Shown here: in pieces, positions 1-13,534 of the stretch
How the letters are laid out: the number at the start of each line of letters is the position of its first letter
Numbering within the stretch: the stretch's first letter is position 1
Assembly: GCA_013696235.1 (NCBI GenBank)
Contig: JACCYY010000339.1
Location: 1-13,534 of the forward strand
DNA: 13,534 bases
Reading direction: 5' to 3'
DNA from: Sporichthyaceae bacterium
GTDB lineage: Bacteria > Actinomycetota > Actinomycetes > JACCYY01
Notes under the pieces: generated by a model
What the model was told of the DNA's origin: nothing
What the model saw: the letters and a program-made list of their open reading frames with translations, nothing else
Databases searched by the model: none
Translations under genes and position numbers: made by a program

Positions 1-369
1 CCGCACGCCGAGCGCGGCGGCTGCCTCGGCGAACCGGACGACGCCGTAGAAGCCGTCGTGGTCGGTGAGGGCGATCGCCTCGAGCCCGAGCCTGGCCGCC
101 TCCTCCGCGAGCTCCTCCGGCTGGCTCGCGCCGTCGAGGAAGCTGAACGTGGAGTGCGCGTGCAGCTCGGCGTACGGGACCGTGCTCGCCGGCCCGGTTG
201 CCGGTGTGGACGGCGGACGGTAGGCGTCGCGGCGGCGCGACCAGGCCGGGCTGTCCCCACCGTCGGGGATCGGTAGGCCGTCGGGCGTCTCCGGCTTCGG
301 CGCCGGTCGCCGTCCGGACAGCTGTCGCTCCAGTTCGGACCACGGCATGTCCGGGTTGTTGAACCCCAT
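1..369 (-). CDS. dnaE2: Error-prone DNA polymerase III alpha subunit DnaE2, N-terminal 123 residues (partial)
   Basis: This is the polymerase of the SOS mutasome; with ImuA and ImuB it copies past DNA lesions. The reading frame is open to the left edge, so only residues 1-123 are visible. The opening (MGFNNPDMPWSELERQLSG) followed by a charged and proline-rich stretch is typical of actinobacterial DnaE2. The PHP domain starts at about residue 66 with YAELHAHSTFSFLDGAS (metal-ligand-type H70 and H72) and continues with LTDHDG at 101-106. The ATG at 369-367 is chosen because it matches the N-terminus I remember for mycobacterial DnaE2 and lies just after a LexA box. There is no usable Shine-Dalgarno site; the transcript may be leaderless. 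It lies 238 bp downstream of imuB in the same direction but has its own operator. The housekeeping DnaE1 lacks this N-terminal extension, so confusion is unlikely. Confidence 0.95.
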   Translation of the reverse strand, partial: MGFNNPDMPWSELERQLSGRRPAPKPETPDGLPIPDGGDSPAWSRRRDAYRPPSTPATGPASTVPYAELHAHSTFSFLDGASQPEELAEEAARLGLEAIALTDHDGFYGVVRFAEAAAALGVR

Positions 370-375
370 CCTGTC

Positions 376-405
376 ATCGAACACCAGTTCGAACGACCAG
401 GTCAA
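376..405 (-). promoter_or_regulatory. Probable dnaE2 promoter
   Basis: On the minus strand TTGACC (405-400) is followed after 18 bp by TTCGAT (381-376) and 6 nt later by the dnaE2 ATG. The -35 is good and the -10 is only fair (3 of 6 to TATAAT). The LexA box sits over the -10. The spacing would place the transcription start at or next to the ATG. Inferred from sequence only. Confidence 0.5.
377..392. promoter_or_regulatory. LexA operator (SOS box) of dnaE2
   Basis: TCGAACACCAGTTCGA matches the actinobacterial SOS-box consensus TCGAAC-N4-GTTCGA at all 12 defined positions. It ends 8 bp upstream of the dnaE2 ATG and overlaps the proposed -10 element, so bound LexA would block RNA polymerase. 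DNA damage should induce the gene through RecA-stimulated LexA cleavage. Confidence 0.93.
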
Positions 406-607
406 GACCGCAGCCGGCAGGTGGCGATCCGGTACCGAGGTGGACGGCGGCACCGAGGCCACGCTGGACGCACGGCTTGAGCTTCCCGTCCAGCGTCTGC
501 CGGATCGACTTCGCCTGGACGCTCGGCTCCCGCCCGGCGTAGTGCTGAGGGTTGCCCTGCGCGCTTCTTGACCGTCGAGTCCTGGGGTGAAGTCGCCCAG
601 ACCGGCA

Positions 608-2329
608 TCAGTCGTAGCTGGCTTCGAGGTGCCACTGGCCGGCCTCGAGCACGAGCAGGTGGGCGCACTGGTCTGCGGTGACGACCTGGACGCGGGCCTG
701 GCGCCGGTGCGAGCCGGGGTCCCACCAGCGGCTGTCGACCGGCCACGGCCCGGCCCAGGCGACGACGTCGACGGCAGGTCCATCCGCGAGCGCCAGCCGG
801 GCGGGGACTGACGTGGCGACGAACCGGCCGGTCACCTCGACCAGCGCGCCGTCGACGGTGAGGAGCTTCGCCGGGATCGGCGCAGGCGGGACCGTCGCCG
901 GGGACGGCACCGGCAGCCGACCCGGCCAGGGCAGCGTGTCGAGCGGGTCCGGTGCACGCGGCTCGCCCCAGGGAACTGCCCTGACCCGGCCAGCCACGTC
1001 TCGACCACCCGCGAGCACTGCGGTCGCCGCCGCGGTCGGACCGAGCAGGCCAAGGACCCGGTCGACCGCACGTCCGACCCGTTCCTGACCACCGTTGTCC
1101 TCGCCCCACAGACCGAGTTGGCGACCGATGCCGACCACCTCGACCGGGACGAGACGCAACAGCGACACCCCGGCCGTCGGCATCCCCGACGTTGGGTTCT
1201 GGCCCGGGGTGGCCCCGTGCCAAGAGGTCTGGTGATGGGTCACCCCGTGCTGAACGAGGCTTGGCGCGGATCCGCCCGAACCGTTGCCGGGTGTGCCGCC
1301 GACGGTGCCGGAGAGCCACCCGTCGAGCTGCCAGCGGACCCGCTCGGCGAGCGCGACCGCGGTGAAGCCGTCGTCGTGCCGCCAGACCCGGGCCAGCTCC
1401 TCCCCGTGCTCGGTCTGCGCCTCGACCCGTACACGGGTGACCGCGAGCGCCCGTCCGGCGAGCATGGCGGTCAGCCGGTCGGCCAGCGCCTTGGCGGCGA
1501 ACGTGGCGGCGTCGACCCGCTCGACCGGTGGGTCGAGCACGGTCTGCACAGCCAGGTCAGGCGGCGCCTCGCGACCGGCCGGTGGGCGCTCGGCGAGACC
1601 GCGCGCGAGGCGGTGCCGGCAACGACCCTCCGGGCCGAACCTGGCCAGCACCTCGTCGTCGGGCAGCGCTGCGAACCCGCCGAGCGTGGAGATGCCGAGC
1701 CGGACCAGCAGGTCGGCGAGGTCGGCGTCGCCGAGCGACTGGACCGGCAGCGGGGCGAGGAACGCCGCGGACTCCCCCGGCGGCACGACCTGGACCCGGT
1801 ACGCCGCCTGGATCGCGGCGAACGTGCCGTCGGCTATCCCGAACCTGCCTTCGTGCCCGACGCCTGCGACCACGCCGGCGAGGACGTCGACGAGTGCCTC
1901 CTCCCCACCGAAGTACCTCGTCGCGCCCTTGGCCGCCACCACGGCCAGCCCTGGCCGCAGCACCTCGATCCCGGGTGCGAGCTCTTCGACGGCGGCCACC
2001 ACCGGCTCGAACGCCCGGGCGTCCTGGGCCGGGTTCGCGGCGACGACGACGAGGTCCGGTACGCGTGACTGCGCTTCTCGACGGCGCTGCCCTCGGTAGA
2101 CCCCCTCGGCCCGAGCGGCCGCCGAGCAGGCAACCACCCGGTTGGCCGAGACGACGACAGCCGGTTCGACGGCGGAGATCCCGGCTGCCACCACCGACCA
2201 GTCCGGGCACCAGAGCGCCAGCGTCCGGACCACCCGCTCGGTGGCCGGGGCAGAAATTCCATGATCACCGCCAGGAGCGGTGGCGCGGGGACGGGATCGG
2301 AGCGAGCGAGGCGGAGCGTCGGTCGTCAT
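608..2329 (-). CDS. imuB: ImuB, Y-family polymerase-like mutasome scaffold protein
   Basis: ImuB is a Y-family polymerase homologue that lacks the catalytic acidic residues. It bridges DnaE2, ImuA and the sliding clamp during damage-induced mutagenesis. The 573-residue product shows the family start RTLALWCPDW at 35-44, RPGLAVVAAKGATRYFGGEE at 125-144, little-finger-like sequence around 297-340, and the clamp-binding motif QLGLW at 404-408. The C-terminus (WHLEASYD) is also typical. It is longer than the roughly 520-530 residues usual for actinobacterial ImuB. Much of the excess lies in a linker at about 341-384, which holds an in-frame dispersed repeat (peptide around 359-379). The ATG at 2329 lies 2 nt after the imuA stop (TGATCATG), so translational coupling is likely. 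A GTG near residue 33 is an alternative start. It is co-transcribed with imuA under LexA control. Confidence 0.93.
   Translation of the reverse strand: MTTDAPPRSLRSRPRATAPGGDHGISAPATERVVRTLALWCPDWSVVAAGISAVEPAVVVSANRVVACSAAARAEGVYRGQRRREAQSRVPDLVVVAANPAQDARAFEPVVAAVEELAPGIEVLRPGLAVVAAKGATRYFGGEEALVDVLAGVVAGVGHEGRFGIADGTFAAIQAAYRVQVVPPGESAAFLAPLPVQSLGDADLADLLVRLGISTLGGFAALPDDEVLARFGPEGRCRHRLARGLAERPPAGREAPPDLAVQTVLDPPVERVDAATFAAKALADRLTAMLAGRALAVTRVRVEAQTEHGEELARVWRHDDGFTAVALAERVRWQLDGWLSGTVGGTPGNGSGGSAPSLVQHGVTHHQTSWHGATPGQNPTSGMPTAGVSLLRLVPVEVVGIGRQLGLWGEDNGGQERVGRAVDRVLGLLGPTAAATAVLAGGRDVAGRVRAVPWGEPRAPDPLDTLPWPGRLPVPSPATVPPAPIPAKLLTVDGALVEVTGRFVATSVPARLALADGPAVDVVAWAGPWPVDSRWWDPGSHRRQARVQVVTADQCAHLLVLEAGQWHLEASYD
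1199..1252 (-). repeat. Two-hairpin dispersed repeat, copy A, in frame inside imuB
   Basis: Read on the minus strand, this 54-bp block aligns without gaps to copy B at 3277-3330. By hand count about 42 of 52 core positions are identical. It consists of two related palindromes joined by ACCTCTT. The half at 1201-1221 keeps GGCACGGGG near CCCCGGGCC, while the other half has decayed. In the imuB frame it encodes QHGVTHHQTSWHGATPGQ, against WHGVTPCRTSWCGATPCQ in copy B. It falls in the variable linker before the clamp-binding motif, so the reading frame survives. Confidence 0.8.
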
Positions 2330-2331
2330 GA

Positions 2332-3186
2332 TCAGCCGACCAGCCGTGATGGCACCGATGCCGACCCACCGACGCCGTCCGGCGCTCCGGCGGTCTTCAC
2401 GAGGGCCGAAACGCCATCACCTCCACGGGCGACCACCAGACGTTCATGATCGACAAGCAGGTGGGGGTCATAGGCGGCCACCCGGCCGTCGGGGCCGGGC
2501 AGCCAGAGCCGCACCCGCCGCGGCCGGACTGCCGCCCCGCGCCCGACCGCGGTGACCTCGACCTCGCGAGCGGTGAGGTGTCCGTGCCCGGCGCCGAGTC
2601 CGTGCCAGCGTTGCGCGGTCACGGTGAGACCGAGCGACGCGCCTTCCCACGGTGACGTGGCAACGAGGACGGCGCCGCGCTCGCGAGCCCGGGCGGTGAG
2701 CCGCCGGATCGCGTGCTGCGCTCGAGTCGCCCGGTCACCTCGACGCGGTGGCCCGATCGATGTGCCGGCTGACGTGCCGTCGTCGGTCCAGGGATGCACG
2801 ACCACGATGTCGAAGCCGTCCAGCAGCGCCGCGACCACCTCTGGCCAGCGCTCACCTGGTCTCGGCACCCGGACGAAGCGGTCCAGGACGACACCTGCCT
2901 CGGCCGCAGCAGCGATCCCGAGCCCCGCTGTTCCGACCTCGGCGCACCAGGCACCGGCGCTGGACGCTTCGGCGATCAGCGCCAGCACGAGAGAGCCCGA
3001 ACCGGTCACGGTGACCACCGAGCCGCGTTCGAGCGCCCCGCCCGGCAGCAGCCCGGCCAGCGCCGGTGCCACCGGTACCCAGGTGGCATCGGCGGAGCCG
3101 CCGACAGGCGGGGCGAACCCCCGACTGACCCCATGGCCGCCGCCAGCCCCGACCAGATCGGCGAGCAGCGCGGTGGACGGGGTCAT
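2332..3186 (-). CDS. imuA: ImuA (ImuA'), RecA-fold mutasome accessory protein
   Basis: ImuA-type proteins are RecA-fold partners of ImuB and DnaE2 needed for SOS mutagenesis. The 284-residue product has the RecA-like core starting at about residue 48 (LPGGALERGSVVTVTGSGSL, then ALIAEASSAGAWCAEVG). A Walker-B-like strand follows (GFDIVVVHPW), and later a stretch with VLVATSPWEGASLGLTVTAQRW. The Walker A position reads TGSGSLVLAL without the usual GKT, as expected for this degenerate ATPase family. The ATG at 3186-3184 lies 5 nt after a -10-like hexamer. The stop at 2334-2332 is 2 nt before the imuB ATG, which fixes a two-gene operon. The assignment relies on order (imuA-imuB-dnaE2), the fold signature and the SOS operator together. 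Confidence 0.9.
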   Translation of the reverse strand: MTPSTALLADLVGAGGGHGVSRGFAPPVGGSADATWVPVAPALAGLLPGGALERGSVVTVTGSGSLVLALIAEASSAGAWCAEVGTAGLGIAAAAEAGVVLDRFVRVPRPGERWPEVVAALLDGFDIVVVHPWTDDGTSAGTSIGPPRRGDRATRAQHAIRRLTARARERGAVLVATSPWEGASLGLTVTAQRWHGLGAGHGHLTAREVEVTAVGRGAAVRPRRVRLWLPGPDGRVAAYDPHLLVDHERLVVARGGDGVSALVKTAGAPDGVGGSASVPSRLVG

Positions 3187-6243: not shown

Positions 6244-6711
6244 TCAGGCGCGGTCGTAGGTCACGACCTCGAAGCCCGTGTGCCGCACCCGGCCGACCTC
6301 GCGCCACGCCGACCAGTCGACCTTCGGGAAGAACCGATCCCCGGTCGGTTCCTGCTCCACGTGGGACACCACCATCCGATCGACGTACGGCATTGCCCCG
6401 GCGTAGATCTCGGCACCGCCGAGGACGAACACCTCGTCGTCGATCTGCCGCGCGGTCTCGAGCGCCTGCTCGACGCTGGAGGCGGTGCGCACCCCCTCGA
6501 CCGCCCAGTCCGGCTGGCGCGTGACCACAACGGTCGTGCGCCCGGGCAGCGGCCGGCCGATCGAGTCGTACGTACGACGGCCCATGACGAGGACGTGCCC
6601 CATCGTGAGCTGCTTCACGCGCGGGAGGTCGCCGGGCAGCCGCCACGGCAGCCCGCCGTCGTGTCCGATCACCCCGTTCGCGGCGACGGCCGCGACCAGC
6701 GTGACCGTCAT
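6244..6711 (-). CDS. dfrA: Dihydrofolate reductase
   Basis: This enzyme reduces dihydrofolate to tetrahydrofolate with NADPH. It regenerates the cofactor oxidised by the thymidylate synthase encoded just upstream. The 155-residue protein has the usual bacterial length. Visible motifs are the N-terminal strand [25 protein letters not shown] with the substrate-binding acidic residue D28, the NADPH-binding [16 protein letters not shown], and VLGGAEIY. The ATG at 6711-6709 overlaps the thyA stop in an ATGA arrangement, which fixes the start and implies translational coupling. The symbol folA would be equally valid. Nothing suggests the mobile trimethoprim-resistance dfr variants; this looks like the chromosomal housekeeping gene. 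Confidence 0.96.
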
Positions 6712-7502
6712 ACGGCGATCGGTGCCCGGATCGCCGGGTGCGGGTCGTAGCCGATGACCTTGACCGAGTCGACGGCGAACGCGTCGAGGTCGCGTACGGC
6801 CGGGTCGAGCCAGAGCTCGGGCATCGGACGCGGGTCGCGAGCGAGCTGCTCGCGCGCCTGGTCGAGATGGTTCACGTAGAGGTGCGCGTCCCCGAACGTG
6901 TGCACGAAGTCACCGACCTCGAGATCGGTGACCTGCGCGACCATGTGTGTGAGCAGGGCGTACGACGCGATGTTGAACGGGACGCCGAGGAAGACGTCCG
7001 CCGACCGCTGGTAGAGCTGGCACGAGAGCCGACCGTCGGCGACGTAGAACTGGAACAGGGCGTGGCAGGGCGTGAGTGCCATCGCATCGAGGTCGGCCAC
7101 GTTCCAGGCGCTCACCACGTGGCGGCGCGAGTCGGGGTCGCGCCGGATCTGCTCGACGACCCAGGCGAGCTGGTCGACGTGCCCCCCGCTCGGCGTCGGC
7201 CACGACCGCCACTGGTAGCCGTAGATCGGTCCGAGGTCGCCGCCCGAGTCGGCCCACTCGTCCCAGATCGTGACGCCGTGCTCGCGCAACCAAGCGGTGT
7301 TGGTGTCGCCGCGGATAAACCAGAGCAGCTCCGCGACGACGGACCTGACGTGCACCTTCTTCGTCGTCACGAGCGGGAATCCGGCGCCGAGGTCGTAGCG
7401 CATCTGGTGGCCGAACACGCTCAACGTCCCGGTCCCCGTACGGTCGTCCTTGCGCACGCCCTCGTCCAGGATCCGCTGGACCAGGTCGAGGTACTGCCGC
7501 AC
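6708..7502 (-). CDS. thyA: Thymidylate synthase ThyA, intact copy
   Basis: ThyA methylates dUMP to dTMP using methylenetetrahydrofolate. Starting at the GTG at 7502-7500, the protein has 264 residues, the same as E. coli ThyA, with matching numbering. R21 is in DRTGTGT, the R126-R127 pair in [13 protein letters not shown], the catalytic C146 in [13 protein letters not shown]169 and N177 in [16 protein letters not shown], and the end is [14 protein letters not shown]. An in-frame ATG at 7529 would add 9 residues that the family lacks. TAGCGT (7515-7510) stands 7 nt before the GTG, so a leaderless mRNA is likely. The gene overlaps dfrA by 4 nt. A truncated second copy, about 93% identical in DNA, lies beyond trpS. 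Confidence 0.95.
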
Positions 7503-7509
7503 CCTTGCG

Positions 7510-7515
7510 ACGCTA
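7510..7515 (-). promoter_or_regulatory. Probable -10 element of thyA
   Basis: TAGCGT fits the actinobacterial TANNNT -10 pattern and ends 7 nt before the GTG start, which suits leaderless transcription. The truncated copy has TACGGT (9253-9248) at 6 nt from its GTG, so the duplicated segment includes this element. No clear -35 is visible. Confidence 0.5.
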
Positions 7516-7584
7516 GCACCGGCCGCCATCCCCTCCGCCCGCCTGACCGCTGGCGCGCCGTGATGTCGGCACGAAGCCACCCGG

Positions 7585-8574
7585 TCACGCCGCCGGGGCG
7601 AGCCCGATCGCGCGGTGCGCCCGCTCGAGCGTTGGCCCAGCGAGCTGGCGAGCCCGGCCTGCACCGTCGCGCAGCACCACGTCGAGGTCGCCGTCGTCTC
7701 GGATCTGCGCGTAGGTGCGCTGCACGGGCTCGAGCAGCGCGATCACCGCAGCCGCGACGTCACGCTTGAGGGCCACGTACGACTGGTAGGACTCCGCCAG
7801 AGGTACTGGATGGGTTCCGGTGAGCGCGCCGAGCACCGCGAGGAGGCTGCTCACCCCGGGCTTCTCGTCCGGCGCGTAGCGGACCACGCGGTCGCCGTCA
7901 GTGGTCGCCCGGCCGATCTTGCGCTCGACGACGCGTGGCGGGTCGAGCAACGAGATCACCCCGACGGACGACGTGCTGGTCTTGCCCATCTTCCGGGTCG
8001 GGTCGACCAGATCCATCACCCGAGCGACGTGCGCTGGATGGACGCCGGCCGGCACCACGAACGTCTCTCCGTACCGCCCGTTGAATCGATGGGCCAATGT
8101 CCGGGCCAGCTCCAGGTGCTGGCACTGGTCCTCACCGACGGTCACGAGATCGGTGTCGTACGCGAGGATGTCGGCGGCCATCAGCGCGGGATAGGTGAGC
8201 AGGGCCGCTCGTACGCGGTCCTGCGCACCCGCCTTCTCCCTGAACTGGATCATCCGCCGGAGCTCGCCGAAGGCCACAGTGGCCTCCATGAGGTACGCCA
8301 GCTCGGCGTGCGCCGGCACCTGCGACTGCACGAACAGCACGCTGCGGTCCGGGTCGACGCCGCAGGCGATCAGGAGTCCGGCGAGCTCGAGCGTGAGCTC
8401 GCTCAGGCGGCGCGGGTCGTGCTCGACGGTGAGCGAGTGGAGGTCGACGACCGCGTAACGGCACGCCGTCGTCGGGTCGTCCTGAAGATCGATCATCTGG
8501 CGGATCGCGCCGAGGTAGTTGCCGAGGTGGAGCGATCCGGTGGGCTTGAGTCCGGAGAACACGGTGGTGGTCAT
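7585..8574 (-). CDS. trpS: Tryptophanyl-tRNA synthetase, attenuator-controlled
   Basis: TrpRS activates tryptophan with ATP and charges tRNA-Trp. The 329-residue class I enzyme has [18 protein letters not shown] with the HIGH-type motif HLGN at 16-19, VVDLHSLTV at 42-50, [13 protein letters not shown] at 125-137, [13 protein letters not shown] at 146-158, and the second signature as KMGKT at 195-199 instead of KMSKS. The ATG at 8574 has a strong Shine-Dalgarno GAAGGAG (8585-8579) 4 nt upstream. The 5' leader encodes a Trp-rich peptide and attenuator hairpins, so expression should rise when charged tRNA-Trp falls. Streptomyces coelicolor carries an auxiliary indolmycin-resistant TrpRS regulated this way. 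That role here, with a second housekeeping trpS elsewhere, is inference. The flanking thyA copies suggest insertion or rearrangement. Confidence 0.95.
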
Positions 8575-8578
8575 GAGG

Positions 8579-8585
8579 CTCCTTC
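8579..8585 (-). promoter_or_regulatory. trpS ribosome binding site
   Basis: GAAGGAG on the minus strand, 4 nt before the ATG, is the strongest Shine-Dalgarno site I saw in the window. It fits a gene with a long structured leader, unlike the apparently leaderless neighbours. Confidence 0.85.
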
Positions 8586-8638
8586 AGGTGGGAGCCGCCC
8601 CGGGACGACGGAAGCCGCACGCGTTCCGGGCACAGAAC

Positions 8639-8661
8639 GGCCGCCTCGTCAGGAGGCGGCC
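8639..8661 (-). terminator. Attenuator terminator hairpin (segments 3:4) upstream of trpS
   Basis: GGCCGCCTC (8661-8653) and GAGGCGGCC (8647-8639) form a perfect 9-bp stem with a 5-nt loop. GTTCTGTG follows, a weak U-containing tail as is common in high-GC actinomycetes. It lies 64 nt before the trpS ATG and would stop transcription when Trp is plentiful. Confidence 0.8.
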
Positions 8662-8725
8662 GGGGGTCGGTGGTTCGCGCGAGGTCAGCGCGCGAGCACG
8701 CAGGGATCGGCCGCCTGCTGCGGCC
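8639..8725 (-). promoter_or_regulatory. Ribosome-mediated trp attenuator of trpS
   Basis: Four segments can be read on the minus strand. Segment 1, GGCCGC (8725-8720), begins inside the third Trp codon. Segment 2, AGGCGGCC (8716-8709), pairs by its GCGGCC with segment 1 to give a 6-bp hairpin. Segment 3 begins GGCCGCCT (8661-8654) and is exactly complementary to all 8 bases of segment 2. Segment 4 is GAGGCGGCC (8647-8639). A ribosome stalled on the first Trp codon would cover segment 1, free segment 2 to pair with 3, and so prevent the 3:4 terminator. Completed translation would let 1:2 and 3:4 form. The stop codon at 8687-8685 lies between segments 2 and 3, where a small CGCGCG hairpin is also possible. 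Confidence 0.82.
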
Positions 8726-8747
8726 ACCACCACTGTGCGCTGATCAT
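8685..8747 (-). CDS. Tryptophan-rich leader peptide of trpS
   Basis: A 20-codon ORF reads MISAQ, then three consecutive tryptophans (codons 6-8, TGGTGGTGG at 8732-8724), then [12 protein letters not shown] and TGA. Three tandem Trp codons in so short an ORF, directly ahead of hairpins and trpS, mark it as a regulatory leader peptide whose translation senses charged tRNA-Trp. The ATG lies 7 nt after a -10 element, so it is probably translated from a leaderless mRNA. The ATG also overlaps the stop of the truncated thyA frame (ATGA). Confidence 0.85.
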
Positions 8748-9241
8748 GGCGTCGAATGTACCACCGGCACGGCTCGTTCGTCAGGCGTCGTAGTCAGGGC
8801 GTGGCACGGCGTGAGCGCCATCGCGTCGAGGTCGGCGACGTTCCAGGCGCTCACCACGTGGCGCCGCGAGTCCGGATCGAGGCGGATCTGCTCGACGACC
8901 CGCGCGAGCTGGTCGACGTGCGCTCCGCTCGGCGTCGGCCACGACCGCCACTGGTAGCCGTAGATCGGGCCGAGGTCGCCGGCCGAGTCGGCCCACTCGT
9001 CCCAGATCGTGACGCCGTGATCGCGCAACCAGGCGGTGTTGGTGTCGCCGCGGATGAACCAGAGCAGCTCCGCGACGACGGACCTGACATGGACTTTCTT
9101 CGTGGTCACGAGCGGGAACCCGGCGGCGAGGTCGTAGCGCATCTGGTGGCCGAATACGCTCAGCGTGCCGGTGCCCGTCCGGTCTTCCTTGCGCACGCCC
9201 TCGTCAAGAATCTGCTGGACCAGGTCGAGGTACTGCCGCAC
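8744..9241 (-). pseudogene. Truncated duplicate of thyA
   Basis: From a GTG at 9241 this frame repeats ThyA residues 1-149 with 8 amino-acid changes. At DNA level I count about 33 mismatches in 445 bp against 7056-7500. Homology stops exactly after the CTG of LTPCHAL, position 8795. After that the frame reads 16 unrelated residues and stops at 8746-8744. It keeps the catalytic cysteine but loses D169, N177 and the whole C-terminal half needed for dUMP and folate binding, so it cannot be a working ThyA. Homology also extends about 20 bp upstream of the start and includes a TANNNT -10 (TACGGT, 9253-9248), so it may still be transcribed into the trpS leader. The first 149 codons are not interrupted, which suggests a fairly recent event or residual selection. 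Confidence 0.9.
8755..8784 (-). promoter_or_regulatory. trpS leader promoter
   Basis: CTGACG (8784-8779, 4 of 6 to TTGACA) is followed after 18 bp by TACATT (8760-8755). An extended -10 TGG stands directly before TACATT. The predicted start is at or beside the leader-peptide ATG at 8747. The promoter begins about 10 bp inside the non-thyA sequence that follows the thyA truncation point, as expected if the trpS cassette brought its own promoter. Confidence 0.7.
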
Positions 9242-9293
9242 CGCGCGACCGTAGCACCGGCCTCCGCCGGTGCCCGGTCGCGCCACGCGTCAG

Positions 9294-9838
9294 TTACCAG
9301 CGATGCGCCACGTCCAGCACGATGCGGGAGCTCGACCCCGGACCGGCCAGCGAGAACACCCGGAAGGGCAGCCGGGCCCGCGCGCCCAGCCCGATGGTCG
9401 TGTAGCCCTCGTAGCTGCCGCCCCACGCCACCTGCCGGAACGTCCGCCAGCCGCTCACATTGACGAGCTCCTGGGGGTCTGCGGGGTCGTACGTCGAGGC
9501 GCCCGTGTCGTCGTACGCGGGGTCGAGCAGCACGATCTCGAGGAGGGCTCCACCACGCAGCGGGATCACGGTCCCGCCCTGGTCGTACACCTGCGAGACG
9601 TACCGGACCTGGAACCCGTTTTCTGCGCCGCGGATGTCCATGACCAACCGGTCGTCGCAGTCGTGGCGGCCGCCGCGGACGTTCGTCAACGGTGCGGGCG
9701 AGGGCGCTCCGCCGTTCTTGGGCAGCGGCCCCAGGTGATGCCGCAGTACGCGGACTCGGTCGCCTGCGCGCTGGGTGCGAGAAGCGCAACCGAGCCGAGA
9801 ACCGCCGCTGCGGTGAGCCACTTGATCAATGTCTTCAT
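9294..9838 (-). pseudogene. Secreted AMIN-like domain protein, frameshifted after the signal peptide
   Basis: This resembles a common actinobacterial secreted protein family with an AMIN-like domain; its function is unknown to me and probably cell-envelope related. The ATG at 9838 starts a clear signal peptide (MKTLIKWLTAAAVLGSVALL, then APSAQA with cleavage likely after A26) followed by TESAYCGITWG. That frame then reaches a stop at 9688-9686. The rest of the protein continues in another frame as PLPKNGGAPSPAPLTNVRGG and RHDCDDRLVMDIRG, and ends at 9294 with SRIVLDVAHRW, TAA. Restoring one G in the GGGG run at 9732-9729 (TGG GGG CCG CTG) joins both into 181 residues. GAGGGGG (9852-9846) is a good Shine-Dalgarno site 7 nt upstream. 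It may be a true frameshift or a homopolymer error in the sequence. Confidence 0.8.
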
Positions 9839-9961
9839 CAGGGTTCCCCCTCGGTGTGCCGATCTTGTGCCAGGTAGAGGCCGAGCTCACCGCATCGGTT
9901 GACGCGACCTGATCGCGAAAACTGATCGCCGAAGCGGCAGGTCATCCTTCACCCTCGATGC
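9839..9961. other. Divergent promoter region between the AMIN-like gene and the MFS gene
   Basis: These 123 bp separate two divergently oriented genes and should contain both promoters. No strong -35/-10 pair is evident in either direction. An 8-bp direct repeat CTGATCGC occurs at 9909-9916 and 9922-9929, a 13-bp period; this could be a regulator site for the transporter but is weak evidence. Confidence 0.35.
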
Positions 9962-11251
9962 GTGCCACGTCGACGACTCCCCGCGTACGCGACGTGGATG
10001 GTCTATGCCGGCGCGTGGTCGTTCATCGGCGCGCTGTCCTGGACGACGGCTGCGGTGTACCTCGTCCGGGAGGTCGGCATGACGCCGTTGCAGCTCGTCC
10101 TCACCGGCACCGCGCTCGAGGTGTCCTATTTCATCTTCGAGATCCCCACGGGTGTCGTCGCGGACCTCTACTCCCGGCGACTCTCGCTCGTGACAGCCGC
10201 GGTGCTCAGTGGCGCGGCCATGATCATGACCGGCGCGGTTCCGACCGTCGCGGCGGTCCTCGTCGGTGCTGCTCTCTGGGGCTTCGGCTGGACGTTCCGC
10301 AGCGGCGCCGAGGACGCGTGGTTGGCCGACGAGATCGGACTGGCGCGGCTCGGGTTGGTCTACCAGCGGGCCGCCCAGCTGGAACGGGTGACCGGGCTGC
10401 TCGGGATCGGCGCTGCAGTCGGCCTCGCGATGGTCGACCTCCAGCTGCCGCTCGTGGCCGCCGGGGCGGTCACCCTGGCCCTCGCCGGCTTCCTCGCGCT
10501 GGCGATGCCCGAGGAAGGCTTCTCGCGACCCACGCGCACCCGGCCTGGCGGGCACGTACGGGACGCGGTCGCGGTCGCCCGGACCGGCTCGCTCCTCGTC
10601 CGGTCGCACCCCGTCCTCGTCCTCGTGCTCGGGATTGCGTTCGTGGTCGGCATGTGGGCCGAGGGCTTCGACCGGTTGTGGGAGGCGCACTTGCTGCTCG
10701 AGGTCGGCCTCCCCGAGCTCGGCAGGCTCGACGATGTCGCGTGGTTCGGCATCATCGCGGCCGGCTCGCTCGTGCTGTCGTTCGCCGTCGCGGCACCGCT
10801 CGTCACACGCGTCGGGCGGCTCGACCAGGCAGCGCTGGCGCGATTCCTCCTGCTCATGCACAGCCTGCTCATGATCACAGCGCTGGGGTTCGCGCTGGCC
10901 GGGTCGCTGTGGCTCGCCCTCGCCGCGTTCTGGGCGACGACCGTGGTCCGGGAGCTCGCTGGCGCACCGTACCGGACCTGGCTCAACGGAACGATCACCG
11001 ACTCCTCCGTCCGGGCCACCGTGCTGTCGATCGCCGGTGTGTCCGGCAGCGCCGGCGAGTGGGCCGGCGGGCCGCTGCTCGGCGCGGTGGGTACCCGATG
11101 GTCGGTGCGAACGGCGCTCGCGACCGGGGCGCTCCTGCTCGCGCCCTCGATCGTGCTGTTCGCACGCGCAGTCCGGCACCACGGCCGCGAGGCCAAGCTT
11201 GCGTCGGCGACGCTCGAACCCCCGGCTGACCGCACCGGTCAGGCGTCGTAG
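9962..11251 (+). CDS. MFS transporter
   Basis: A 429-residue multi-pass membrane protein of the major facilitator superfamily, probably a proton-driven exporter; the substrate cannot be told from sequence. Hydrophobic helices run throughout, for example VYAGAWSFIGALSWTTAAVY near the start, the pair AALVGAALWGFGWTF-like around 100, and LLLMHSLLMITALGFALAG in the C-terminal half. The loop after helix 2 reads FEIPTGVVADLYSRRLS, a variant of the MFS motif A (G-x-x-x-D-R-x-G-R-R). A hydrophilic central loop follows MPEEGFSRPTRTRPGG near 180-195. I chose the GTG at 9962 because it starts right before the positively charged PRRRLPAY; an ATG 36 bp later is the alternative. No Shine-Dalgarno site is visible. 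It is the only plus-strand gene, and its stop overlaps the paaE 3' end by 13 bp. Confidence 0.88.
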   Translation: MPRRRLPAYATWMVYAGAWSFIGALSWTTAAVYLVREVGMTPLQLVLTGTALEVSYFIFEIPTGVVADLYSRRLSLVTAAVLSGAAMIMTGAVPTVAAVLVGAALWGFGWTFRSGAEDAWLADEIGLARLGLVYQRAAQLERVTGLLGIGAAVGLAMVDLQLPLVAAGAVTLALAGFLALAMPEEGFSRPTRTRPGGHVRDAVAVARTGSLLVRSHPVLVLVLGIAFVVGMWAEGFDRLWEAHLLLEVGLPELGRLDDVAWFGIIAAGSLVLSFAVAAPLVTRVGRLDQAALARFLLLMHSLLMITALGFALAGSLWLALAAFWATTVVRELAGAPYRTWLNGTITDSSVRATVLSIAGVSGSAGEWAGGPLLGAVGTRWSVRTALATGALLLAPSIVLFARAVRHHGREAKLASATLEPPADRTGQAS

Positions 11252-12357
11252 TCGAGCACGACCCTCGGCGTCGTCGGGTGGGACTGGCAGGTCAGCACGT
11301 AGCCGCGCTCGACCTCGTCGTCCTCGAGCGCCCAGTTCTGGGTCATCTCGACCTCGCCCTCGATGATCTTGGCGCGGCAGGTGCCGCAGACACCGCCCTT
11401 GCAGGCGAATGGTGCATCCGACCGCTCGCGCAGGACGGCGTCGAGGACGCTGCCACCGTCGGGAGCCAGGTCGAACGACGTCCGCCGCCCGTCGAGCACG
11501 ACGGTGACCGCACTGGCGGTCGTGTCGGCCGCAGCCGCCGACGGAGGGGGTTGCGAGGTCGGCGGGATGTCGCCGACGAAGAAGAGCTCGGCGTGGATCT
11601 TGCGCTTCTCCACACCGCGATCCACGAGCAGCTGGCGGCCGCCGACGACCATGTCGTACGGGCCGCAGAGGAACCACGCATCGACGTCGGCGACCGGGAC
11701 GAGCGCAGCGAGGATACGTGCGAGGCGATCACGGTCGAGCCGACCGTGGAACAGCTCGACGTCGGGTTCCTCTCGCGACAGCACGTGCACGAGGTGCAGC
11801 CGCTCGGGATAGGTGTTCTTGAGGTCCTCGAGCTCCTCGAGGAACATGATCGACTTCGTGGTCCGGTTCCCGTAGAGCAACGTGAACCGGCTCTCGGGCT
11901 CGACTCGCAGGGCGGTGGCGAGGAGCGAGAGCACCGGCGTGATGCCGCTCCCCGCCGCGACTGCCACGTAGTGCTTGCGCTGGGTCCGGTCGAACGTCGT
12001 GGTGAACCGGCCGGTCGGTGTCATGACCTCGAGCTCGTCGCCCACCCGGAGCGTCCCGGCGACGAACCTGGAGAACGCGCCACCGCTCAACCGCTTCACC
12101 GCGACCCGGAGGAGGCCCGCACCCGCCGGTGCGCAGATCGAGTAGTTGCGCCGGACGTCGTCACCGACCACCGGTGACCGGATCGCCAGGTGCTGCCCGG
12201 CCTCGAAGTCGTACGCCTCGGCGAGCTCGGGTGGGACGTCGAACGAGATCGCGACGGCGTCGTCGGTCAGCAGCTCGATCTCGCTGACGCGCAACGAGTG
12301 GAACTCGGCGTGGCGGTGACCGGCCTCACGACCGGCGACGGCGACCTCCGTCGTCAT
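11239..12357 (-). CDS. paaE: Phenylacetyl-CoA epoxidase reductase subunit PaaE
   Basis: PaaE passes electrons from NADPH through FAD and a 2Fe-2S cluster to the PaaA di-iron oxygenase, which epoxidises the ring of phenylacetyl-CoA. The 372-residue protein has the FAD-binding RNYSICAP near residue 94, the nucleotide-binding AAGSGITPVLSLL, and FLCGPYDMV. A linker rich in Pro, Ser and Ala follows. The C-terminal plant-type ferredoxin has the cysteines of FACKGGVCGTC and a fourth in VLTCQSHP. The order (reductase, then ferredoxin) and length match PaaE. The ATG at 12357-12355 overlaps the paaD stop by one base (TGATG), so translation is coupled; the longer upstream frame runs inside paaD and is rejected. 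Confidence 0.95.
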   Translation of the reverse strand: MTTEVAVAGREAGHRHAEFHSLRVSEIELLTDDAVAISFDVPPELAEAYDFEAGQHLAIRSPVVGDDVRRNYSICAPAGAGLLRVAVKRLSGGAFSRFVAGTLRVGDELEVMTPTGRFTTTFDRTQRKHYVAVAAGSGITPVLSLLATALRVEPESRFTLLYGNRTTKSIMFLEELEDLKNTYPERLHLVHVLSREEPDVELFHGRLDRDRLARILAALVPVADVDAWFLCGPYDMVVGGRQLLVDRGVEKRKIHAELFFVGDIPPTSQPPPSAAAADTTASAVTVVLDGRRTSFDLAPDGGSVLDAVLRERSDAPFACKGGVCGTCRAKIIEGEVEMTQNWALEDDEVERGYVLTCQSHPTTPRVVLDYDA

Positions 12358-12869
12358 CAGATCGCCTTGAAGTGGTCGAAGGGTTCGGTGCACGTCTGGC
12401 ACACCCACAGCGACTTGCAAGCGGTCGAGCCGAAGCGACTGAGCTCGCGGGTGTCGAGGGAGTCGCACTGCGGACAGCGCACCGAGAGCGCGAGCGTGAC
12501 CGACTGGCTGCCGCGAACGGCCGACGAGGGCGGCGCGATTCCGTACATATGGAGCTTCGCCCTGCCGGCGTCACTCATCCAGTTTGTCGTCCAGGCCGGT
12601 GAGAGCACCGTGTGGATCTCCACGGTCTGCCACCCGGCATGCTCCAGCGCGGTTCGCACGTCATCGCGGATCACGTCCATCGCCGGACACCCGGAGTAGG
12701 TGGGCGTGATCGTCACGTGCACGGTTCCGGCGCCGTCGATCTGGACATCGCGGAGCACCCCGAGGTCGTCGATGGTGAGCACGGGCACTTCCGGGTCGGG
12801 CACGTCGGCGACGACCGACCGGGCCGCCGCGACGGTGGAGCGATCACGGTCGCAGGTGGGCGCGGTCAC
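12357..12869 (-). CDS. paaD: Phenylacetyl-CoA epoxidase maturation protein PaaD
   Basis: PaaD is the MIP18/DUF59-type factor of the paa epoxidase operon, thought to help assemble its iron centre. The 170-residue product has DPEVPVLTIDDLGVLRDVQ and TPTYSGCPAMDVI, the two family blocks with the conserved cysteine. It also has a C-terminal zinc-ribbon-like part with RCPQC and CQTC cysteine pairs and the end EPFDHFKAI. The start is placed at the GTG 12869-12867, which overlaps the paaC stop as GTGA; the adjacent GTG at 12872 is equally possible. A longer open frame to 13127 overlaps paaC and lacks protein-like composition, so it is not used. It is tightly coupled to paaC and paaE. Confidence 0.92.
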   Translation of the reverse strand: MTAPTCDRDRSTVAAARSVVADVPDPEVPVLTIDDLGVLRDVQIDGAGTVHVTITPTYSGCPAMDVIRDDVRTALEHAGWQTVEIHTVLSPAWTTNWMSDAGRAKLHMYGIAPPSSAVRGSQSVTLALSVRCPQCDSLDTRELSRFGSTACKSLWVCQTCTEPFDHFKAI

Positions 12870-13534
12870 CACGACGCACCCGGGTGCGACCGGTGCAGGT
12901 GCTGCATCTCGGCCAGGAGGAAGCCCAGCGACTCGGTGTGGATCCCGCGCCGGCCACCTCGGGCGCGCCACCGTGGTGCCGGTTCGTCCAGCGTCGCTTC
13001 GGCCAGCACGGAGCTGACCGAGGACCACCATGGATCGCGGAGCCCGGCCGGGTCGACCGCGATCCGCTCGGTCGAGAGGGACCGGTCGACCTCGTCGCCC
13101 TCGAACAGCTCCGCCACGTAGGGCCACATGGCGTCCAGACCGGCCTGCATGCGGCGGTGGCTCTCCTCCGTACCGTCGCCCAGGCGCAGCACCCAGAGCG
13201 CTGCGTGCTCGCGGTGGTAGGCGACCTCCTTGACCGCCTTGCCGGCGACGCCGGCCAGCGTGGGGTCGGCGGATCCTTGCAACCGCTCGTAGAGCTCGAG
13301 CTGGTACGTCGAGAACACGAGCTGGCGGGCGATCGTCGCGCCGAAGTCGCCGTTGGGCACCTCGACCAGCTGCACGTTGAGGTAGTCCCGTTCGCCGCGC
13401 AGGTAGGCCAGGTCGTCCTCCGTGCGCCCGGCGCCCTCGACCTCACCGGCGTACGTGAGCAACGCACGCGCCTGACCGATCAGGTCGAGCCCGATGTTGC
13501 CCAGCGCGATGTCCTCCTCGATCGCCGGTGCGAC
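12866..13534 (-). CDS. paaC: Phenylacetyl-CoA epoxidase structural subunit PaaC (partial, N-terminus missing)
   Basis: PaaC is the non-catalytic ferritin-like subunit that pairs with the di-iron subunit PaaA in the phenylacetyl-CoA 1,2-epoxidase, the first ring-attacking step of aerobic phenylacetate breakdown. The 222 visible residues begin VAPAIEEDIALGNIGLDLIG. They include ALLTYAGEVEGAGR, LAYLRGERDYLNVQLVEVPN with GDF, KAVKEVAYHREHAALWVLRL, GDGTEESHRRMQ, and end HLHRSHPGASW. The frame is open at the right edge and roughly 30-40 residues are missing. A TTG at 13462 could be mistaken for a start, but the homologous sequence continues before it. paaA and paaB should lie beyond the window. The stop overlaps the paaD start. 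Confidence 0.94.
   Translation of the reverse strand, partial: VAPAIEEDIALGNIGLDLIGQARALLTYAGEVEGAGRTEDDLAYLRGERDYLNVQLVEVPNGDFGATIARQLVFSTYQLELYERLQGSADPTLAGVAGKAVKEVAYHREHAALWVLRLGDGTEESHRRMQAGLDAMWPYVAELFEGDEVDRSLSTERIAVDPAGLRDPWWSSVSSVLAEATLDEPAPRWRARGGRRGIHTESLGFLLAEMQHLHRSHPGASW

Follow-up and report, generated by a model that had tools for sequence, protein, structure and literature searches.

A probable tryptophan attenuator ahead of an auxiliary tryptophanyl-tRNA synthetase gene, set between a truncated and an intact thyA, in a Sporichthyaceae bacterium

Contig JACCYY010000339.1 of a Sporichthyaceae bacterium (assembly GCA_013696235.1; the whole stretch of 13,534 nt is referred to here as the window) carries a tryptophanyl-tRNA synthetase gene, trpS, preceded by a short open reading frame with a run of tryptophan codons and several GC-rich inverted segments. 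A preliminary description, made from the letters of the window, took this region for a complete ribosome-mediated trp attenuator. The locus thus raises the question of what governs trpS, and whether the same plan is found ahead of related genes. The reading best matched by the sequence, and a highly probable one, is that a classical ribosome-mediated transcription attenuator governs an auxiliary tryptophanyl-tRNA synthetase (TrpRS) gene.

The gene (7585..8574, minus strand) encodes an auxiliary TrpRS of 329 aa, identified by TIGR00233 (288 bits, cut-off 177), PF00579 and its position in a tree. The genome has a second trpS on contig C126 that is 48% identical to that of the window, making the window copy the auxiliary one. 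The assembly is in 384 contigs and is 72.8% complete, and the contig with the second trpS ends about 20 bases upstream of the gene, leaving its leader region beyond reach. The other 59 genomes drawn as relatives have only the class in common with this one. A tree of 120 TrpRS sequences was built by a quick method with SH-aLRT supports, and many of its inner branches are unresolved. In it, the window TrpRS pairs with P0002, and next with P0003–P0005 (metagenomic proteins, 65–74% identical). An auxiliary group (SH-aLRT 92) holds 34 leader-bearing actinomycete TrpRS, the window enzyme included, and eight metagenomic rows, while the 16 rows labelled as housekeeping all fall on one side of a branch with a support of 100. 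Among the 21 rows from other classes, 20 adjoin the auxiliary group but fall outside it, and one (L152) is on the housekeeping side. Two loci of Acidimicrobiia (L038, L044) that had been labelled beforehand as attenuated were found to have no leader and were placed outside the auxiliary group. An auxiliary TrpRS of the Streptomyces TrpRS1 type is recognised by a second trpS in the genome and by placement in the auxiliary group, and both were found here.

The enzyme may also withstand a TrpRS inhibitor, and indolmycin-resistant auxiliary TrpRS are described in the consulted parts of two reviews (PMC6804068, PMC9437257). The indolmycin contacts H43, D132 and Q147 (Bacillus enzyme numbering) are all retained in the window enzyme and are invariant in five aligned auxiliary enzymes, and so do not discriminate indolmycin resistance. 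In the search output, the trpS of three genomes (G062, G258 and G359; loci L204, L134 and L208) contained an in-frame stop, one TGA or TAG each, and the auxiliary trpS may be decaying in places.

The leader region is read on the minus strand. A -35-like box, CTGACG (8784-8779), is separated by a spacer of 18 nt from an extended -10, TGG-TACATT (8755..8763, with TACATT at 8760-8755), and the leader ATG (8747-8745) begins 7 nt past the -10. Such spacing implies, as far as the sequence goes, a leaderless or nearly leaderless transcript for the leader peptide. The leader ORF (8685..8747) has 20 codons and ends in a TGA stop at 8687-8685; its three Trp codons, TGGTGGTGG, lie at 8732-8724 (WWW). Four segments follow: segment 1, GGCCGC (8720..8725); segment 2, AGGCGGCCG (8708..8716); segment 3, CGGCCGCCTC (8653..8662); and segment 4, GAGGCGGCCG (8638..8647). 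Segments 2, 3 and 4 were identified by reading, pairing energies and a shuffle test. The 3:4 pairing gives the predicted terminator hairpin, and the 1:2, 2:3 and 3:4 pairings are mutually exclusive and correctly ordered. A linker hairpin, TCGCGCG/CGCGCGA, occupies 8675..8695, and the Shine-Dalgarno sequence of trpS, AAGGAG, is at 8579..8584. The promoter elements, leader ORF, four segments, Shine-Dalgarno sequence and trpS of the preliminary description are therefore each present on the minus strand at the places it gave, and segment 1 (8725-8720) does begin within the third Trp codon. Its promoter with an extended -10 holds as a pair of boxes that can be read between 8784 and 8755, but a generic scan of 7400-9400 gave no promoter of the sigma-70 consensus type. 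The same scan gave no U-tract terminator; 3:4 is a 10-bp GC hairpin with the tail TTCTGTG. An Rfam scan of the window returned no family at gathering score.

How much of this arrangement could arise by chance was gauged with shuffled sequences. The TGGTGGTGG run occurs once in the window, yet 21 of 200 shuffled windows also have one, so that the Trp run by itself is within chance. The ordered pattern AGGCGGCC-GGCCGCCT-AGGCGGCC, which describes segments 2-3-4, occurs once in the window and in none of 200 shuffles. The order of segments 2, 3 and 4 is thus beyond chance, while WWW alone is not. The fold of 8575-8784 has a z-score of -2.38, with one of 200 shuffles equally stable.

The isolated helices have energies of -11.5 kcal/mol (1:2), -21.4 kcal/mol (3:4) and, for 2:3, -16.5 kcal/mol with the linker open or -33.0 kcal/mol with the linker folded; the linker hairpin is in this sense a stabiliser of 2:3. 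Minimum-energy folds of the growing RNA were computed for five ribosome states (none, on Trp codon 1, 2 or 3, and on the stop codon), assuming a footprint that reaches 15 nt in both directions from the first base of the codon in the P site. With the ribosome absent or on the stop codon, 1:2 forms from nt 45 and is displaced by 2:3 at about nt 93–96; the 2:3 phase is short, and 3:4 takes over near nt 108. With a ribosome on any of the three Trp codons there is no 1:2, and 2:3 forms from nt 90–93 and 3:4 from nt 108–111. Sequestering segment 1 had been proposed as the way to see the switch in folds; with the ribosome on a Trp codon 1:2 is lost and 2:3 forms, but 2:3 and then 3:4 appear in all five states (2:3 at about nt 93–105, with 3:4 as the final fold). 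Since every state passes via 2:3 to 3:4, minimum-energy folding alone does not separate on from off, and in this model the switch must be kinetic, with the early 1:2 hairpin kept closed as segment 3 emerges. The leader stop sits 21 nt downstream of segment 2. It is doubtful that a ribosome halted there would mask this segment, which is just uncovered under the assumed footprint.

The attenuator would work as follows. Transcription would begin at or near the leader ATG. With ample Trp-tRNA, the ribosome would pass the three Trp codons and segments 1 and 2 would re-pair behind it; segment 3, left free, would enter the 3:4 hairpin, and transcription would terminate ahead of trpS. With scarce Trp-tRNA, caused by Trp starvation or by inhibition of the housekeeping TrpRS, the ribosome would pause at Trp codon 1 or 2 and cover segment 1, freeing segment 2 to pair with segment 3 before segment 4 is synthesised. 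RNA polymerase would then continue into trpS, and the gene would be induced by Trp-tRNA shortage. The preliminary description had proposed Trp-tRNA-dependent attenuation of this gene, and it is supported by the anatomy, by the second trpS and by the leader plan at 37 related loci, described below. That description had mentioned neither the second trpS nor the duplicated thyA.

The unit is flanked by two copies of the thyA start region on the minus strand, 9265-8795 and 7527-7056, which are identical at 433 of 472 nt. The upstream copy is a truncated thyA with the first 149 codons (8795..9241), its homology to the intact copy extending upstream to 9265; the downstream copy belongs to an intact thyA with a GTG start (6708..7502, by profile match), which is followed by dfrA. 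Over the 149 shared codons there are eight amino-acid differences and 25 silent base differences, indicating that both copies were probably under selection as working genes until recently, and an origin in a related genome appears to suit the differences better than an ancient duplication at this site. The TGA closing the frame of the truncated copy overlaps with the leader ATG, and the sequence shared with thyA stops 10 bp short of the -35 box, so that the trpS unit begins at its own promoter. At all 13 other thyA loci that were compared (about 1.5 kb on each side), thyA is followed by dfrA, and neither a trpS nor a counterpart of the upstream gene at 9294-9890 was present in these stretches. 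It therefore appears that the intact copy keeps the usual position and that the trpS unit is the newcomer at thyA. No third copy of thyA was found in the genome, the sole other match being 79% identical over about 55 bases. The G+C content of the cassette is not distinct from that of its flanks, and the 12-mers at the two junctions are each unique within the window. One pattern-limited scan of viral contigs gave only seven distant TrpRS relatives (32–37%), and matches in phage (35 records) and plasmids (127 records) were all below 60% identity, with no sign of a carrier among them.

The order truncated thyA, trpS, thyA could be an artefact of assembling an incomplete genome, with no true insertion. 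The fragmented and incomplete state of the assembly (384 contigs, 72.8%) would allow this, the junction occurs in no other record (a single exact search with 25 bases, made on viral contigs, gave 0 matches), and trpS adjoins thyA at no other locus checked. It is nevertheless an unlikely explanation: had two genomes been joined at words common to their thyA genes, the product would be a single hybrid thyA and not a truncated copy, trpS and a full copy, and the G+C content of cassette and flanks is similar. It bears on the context only, the attenuator and trpS being independent of whether the thyA junction is real.

Other genes of the window were recorded in passing. On the minus strand, 1-3186 carries an ImuA'-like gene (NF058630) beside an ORF ending in the start of an error-prone DNA polymerase (NF004225 match); the ORF between them (608-2329) has no NCBIfam match and may be imuB, and the region looks like a mutagenesis cassette. 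An MFS transporter gene lies at 9962-11251 on the plus strand; its best NCBIfam matches are tetracycline-efflux models at 265 of 750 bits, far below their cut-offs, so that it is only a distant relative of these. The minus strand of 11239-13534 carries the phenylacetyl-CoA epoxidase genes paaE and paaC, and the intervening ORF may be paaD.

If attenuation controls auxiliary trpS genes, the leader should be seen at related loci. A detector that looks for a Trp-containing ORF, a downstream GC-rich hairpin and, between them, a complement of the 5' arm of that hairpin was applied to 158 loci. It was positive at 37, namely 36 auxiliary trpS and one spurious case in a Parcubacteria MAG (L048). With one further leader recognised by eye (L117), all 37 unmasked auxiliary loci have the leader plan (L012 was masked and is outside this count). 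Homologous leaders without Trp codons or stems had been named as the observation that would speak against the proposal, and the 37 loci are of the opposite kind. The common plan is a Trp ORF directly behind a -10 box, followed by GGCCGCC-type 1:2, 2:3 and 3:4 helices. TANNNT is found 6–7 nt upstream of an in-frame start codon in all 35 parsed leaders (two of the 37 were not parsed), a count favoured by the preference of the script for such starts, with three of the 35 reached through a start one codon upstream of the chosen one. Within L006-L031 the detector found no leader at any of the 25 remaining trpS of the class (the 11 that were placed in the tree all fall on the housekeeping side), nor did it at the 21 trpS of other classes (L138-L158), which come from genomes that may have more than one trpS. 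A trpS of about 50% identity in G085 (L213) has no visible leader, and the trpE of the window genome has no such leader in 600 bases around its start. The prediction that relatives would show conserved Trp codons and covarying stems held for the first part: one to three Trp codons are kept and the stems are kept, but the core helices are nearly invariant and show little or no covariation.

Covariation was found in an additional helix, P0, a possible pairing between the opening codons of the leader and the linker that joins segment 2 to segment 3. In the window its 5' arm, TCAGCGC (8737..8743), pairs with GCGCTGA (8691-8685), the end of which is the leader stop codon. Summed over 35 leaders, the best-helix score was 685, against 555 (sd 18) when linkers were permuted among rows, and none of 5000 permutations was as high; this permutation leaves the relatedness among rows in place. 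Against letter shuffles, 27 of the 35 rows were at or below 0.05, among them the window (score 19, with shuffles averaging 11.7 and a fraction of 0.015 of them reaching 19), and the remaining eight (L005, L122, L132, L134, L135, L115, L126 and L033) were above it. In the 28 Streptomyces-type rows, six of nine P0 pairs show two-sided changes, and 88.5% of the P0 cells are paired compared with 1.3–63% when the arms are slid. P0 would serve to keep the 1:2 protector closed. In the window the minimum-energy fold contains it only while the growing RNA has reached nt 63–71, after which the competing linker hairpin replaces it, and its role there is the least certain part of the scheme.

The distribution of these leaders was followed with a gene-blind covariance model (R1) of 28 Streptomyces-type leaders. 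At E 0.001 it matched in 36 of 393 genomes of the class, upstream of trpS in 33 and of trpD in three. This is a lower bound, as leaders seen in other genomes of the set, among them G007, G054 and G214, were not matched under stricter filters. Of the matched genomes, 21 had supplied training rows and 15 had not (f18 four, f26 five, f16 two, f19 two, f17 one, f46 one). Three of the 33 trpS genes (L201, L202 and L215; families f19 and f46) are of a distant type, about 32–33% identical to that of the window. A Trp leader before a distant TrpRS type suggests either repeated combination of leader and trpS type or more than one origin of the leader. The three trpD cases (L198, L203 and L214; families f16 and f17) carry WWPAS (MIAYSFLWWPAS, VFAHLSQWWPAS and MIKRVDGWWPAS) together with the same hairpins.

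With R1, L003 and the leaders of f16 are recovered at E 0.0013 or lower, but the window leader goes unrecognised, scoring 13.7 bits (E 0.57) in the wrong register. A broader model of 32 rows (R2), from which the window was excluded, placed the window leader in the right register with a score of 21.7 bits and an E of 0.012 in 89 kb; over the whole genome it was the first of 11 matches, at only E 0.257. A held-out Streptomyces-type leader (L131) scored 68 bits with R2. A further alignment (A4), in which the window was poorly placed, was discarded. The window leader has the plan of the family and its position, while the scores fall short of establishing the RNA itself as homologous. Among 346 genomes of the phylum R2 matched 12, trpS leaders included. 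By eye, four of the matches (L227, L229, L230 and L233) resemble trpE leaders, and the window leader, with WWWP and a read-through ORF, is nearer by eye to L230 than to the Streptomyces trpS leaders. One borderline match (L231, E 9e-4), in G642 of another class of the phylum, appears by eye to be a Trp leader, KLQRKAGWWSP, with hairpins before a putative trpB-like gene.

These comparisons bear on two other explanations of the leader itself. It could be a general switch for translation stress, answering any slowed ribosome (as with ribosome-targeting antibiotics) in the manner of the whiB7 leader ORF: an ORF near the promoter would sense any stalled ribosome, and whiB7 leaders of actinobacteria combine a leader ORF, a terminator and an antiterminator, according to the part of PMC10727445 consulted. 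This is very unlikely, as it is Trp codons, one to three of them, that directly precede segment 1 in the leaders of the family, while the rest of the peptide varies, and the genes controlled in the model search all have Trp functions (trpS 33/36, trpD 3/36). Also very unlikely is a plain terminator with a chance Trp-rich ORF, in which 3:4 blocks read-through from the truncated thyA and trpS has a downstream promoter: the chance-level WWW, the weak scores of the window leader in the family models and the prevalence of a completed 3:4 in every ribosome state would suit it, but the 2-3-4 order is absent from all 200 shuffles and the plan recurs at related auxiliary trpS and is absent at the other trpS examined. 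Attenuation by Trp-tRNA supply is preferred to both.

A wider reading, put forward tentatively as one possibility, is that the attenuator and its auxiliary trpS together form a portable and self-contained Trp-tRNA-starvation module of Actinomycetes, which in this genome has fairly recently inserted at thyA with a scar 10 bp above its promoter, P0 being an addition specific to the family. Related RNA cores would then precede at least three kinds of gene, namely the auxiliary trpS group, the distant trpS (about 32% identical) and trpD, and the insertion would have brought or regenerated a working 5' half of thyA, leaving the other half as the scar.

In the trpL attenuator of Escherichia coli, four segments, tandem Trp codons and the coupling of translation to transcription act together. 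The window leader has the same four-segment logic and tandem Trp codons, would use the same coupling, and differs from E. coli trpL in sequence, in the start codon right behind the -10, in the weak U-tract and in its target, a tRNA synthetase gene instead of biosynthesis. Attenuation of a Streptomyces auxiliary trpS was reportedly obtained experimentally by Vecchione and Sello in 2010. Attenuators before trpS in some Streptomyces, including S. avermitilis trpS2, were predicted in 2005 (PMC1262725, in part), and the trpL2-trpS leader of S. lividans, MMTRTCTQLWRAA, comes from RNA-seq; in the portion of that study consulted (PMC8079986), trpL2 is leaderless and trpL2-trpS is without a U-rich tail, making the U-tract an undependable criterion in the trpS-leader family. 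The window leader is like the Streptomyces auxiliary trpS attenuator in the phylogenetic group of its TrpRS, in the leader ORF at the predicted transcription start, in the Trp codons directly 5' of segment 1, in the GGCCGCC-type 1:2, the 2:3 and 3:4 helices, and in the poor U-tract. Unlike it, the window leader has three Trp codons instead of one or two, its ORF extends eight codons beyond segment 2 where the Streptomyces ORF closes within the 1:2 loop, and its linker is longer with a hairpin of its own; the model of Streptomyces leaders misses it. With the Streptomyces trpE leader trpL1 (MFAHSTRNWWWTAHPAAH in S. lividans; PMC8079986, in part) it shares WWW and an ORF reading through segments 1 and 2, and R2 also finds trpE leaders, by eye; trpL1, however, controls anthranilate synthase, whereas the window leader precedes a synthetase gene. 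A literature search of titles and abstract openings, weak in that most subscription journals were outside its scope, gave no trpS attenuators outside Streptomyces; within the same weak scope, with few subscription journals, it gave no such trpD leaders and no trpS beside thyA.

The mechanism is thus already known in Streptomyces, and the window leader is a divergent member of that kind in an unusual setting. The present comparison adds the spread beyond Streptomyces, the covarying extra helix in Streptomyces-type leaders and a trpS between a truncated and an intact thyA. Most gene callers would miss so short a leader ORF, and the leader matched no Rfam family; a Trp-run leader with a GGCCGCC core before a second trpS could serve as a marker of genomes in which an inducible TrpRS, possibly one that resists inhibitors, may be present. 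Provided that the thyA scar is real, it would offer a case for tracing how such a module arrived. On these predictions, tryptophan attenuation of an auxiliary TrpRS, known from Streptomyces, would also be present in an uncultured lineage and, by the comparisons, in several further families of actinomycetes.
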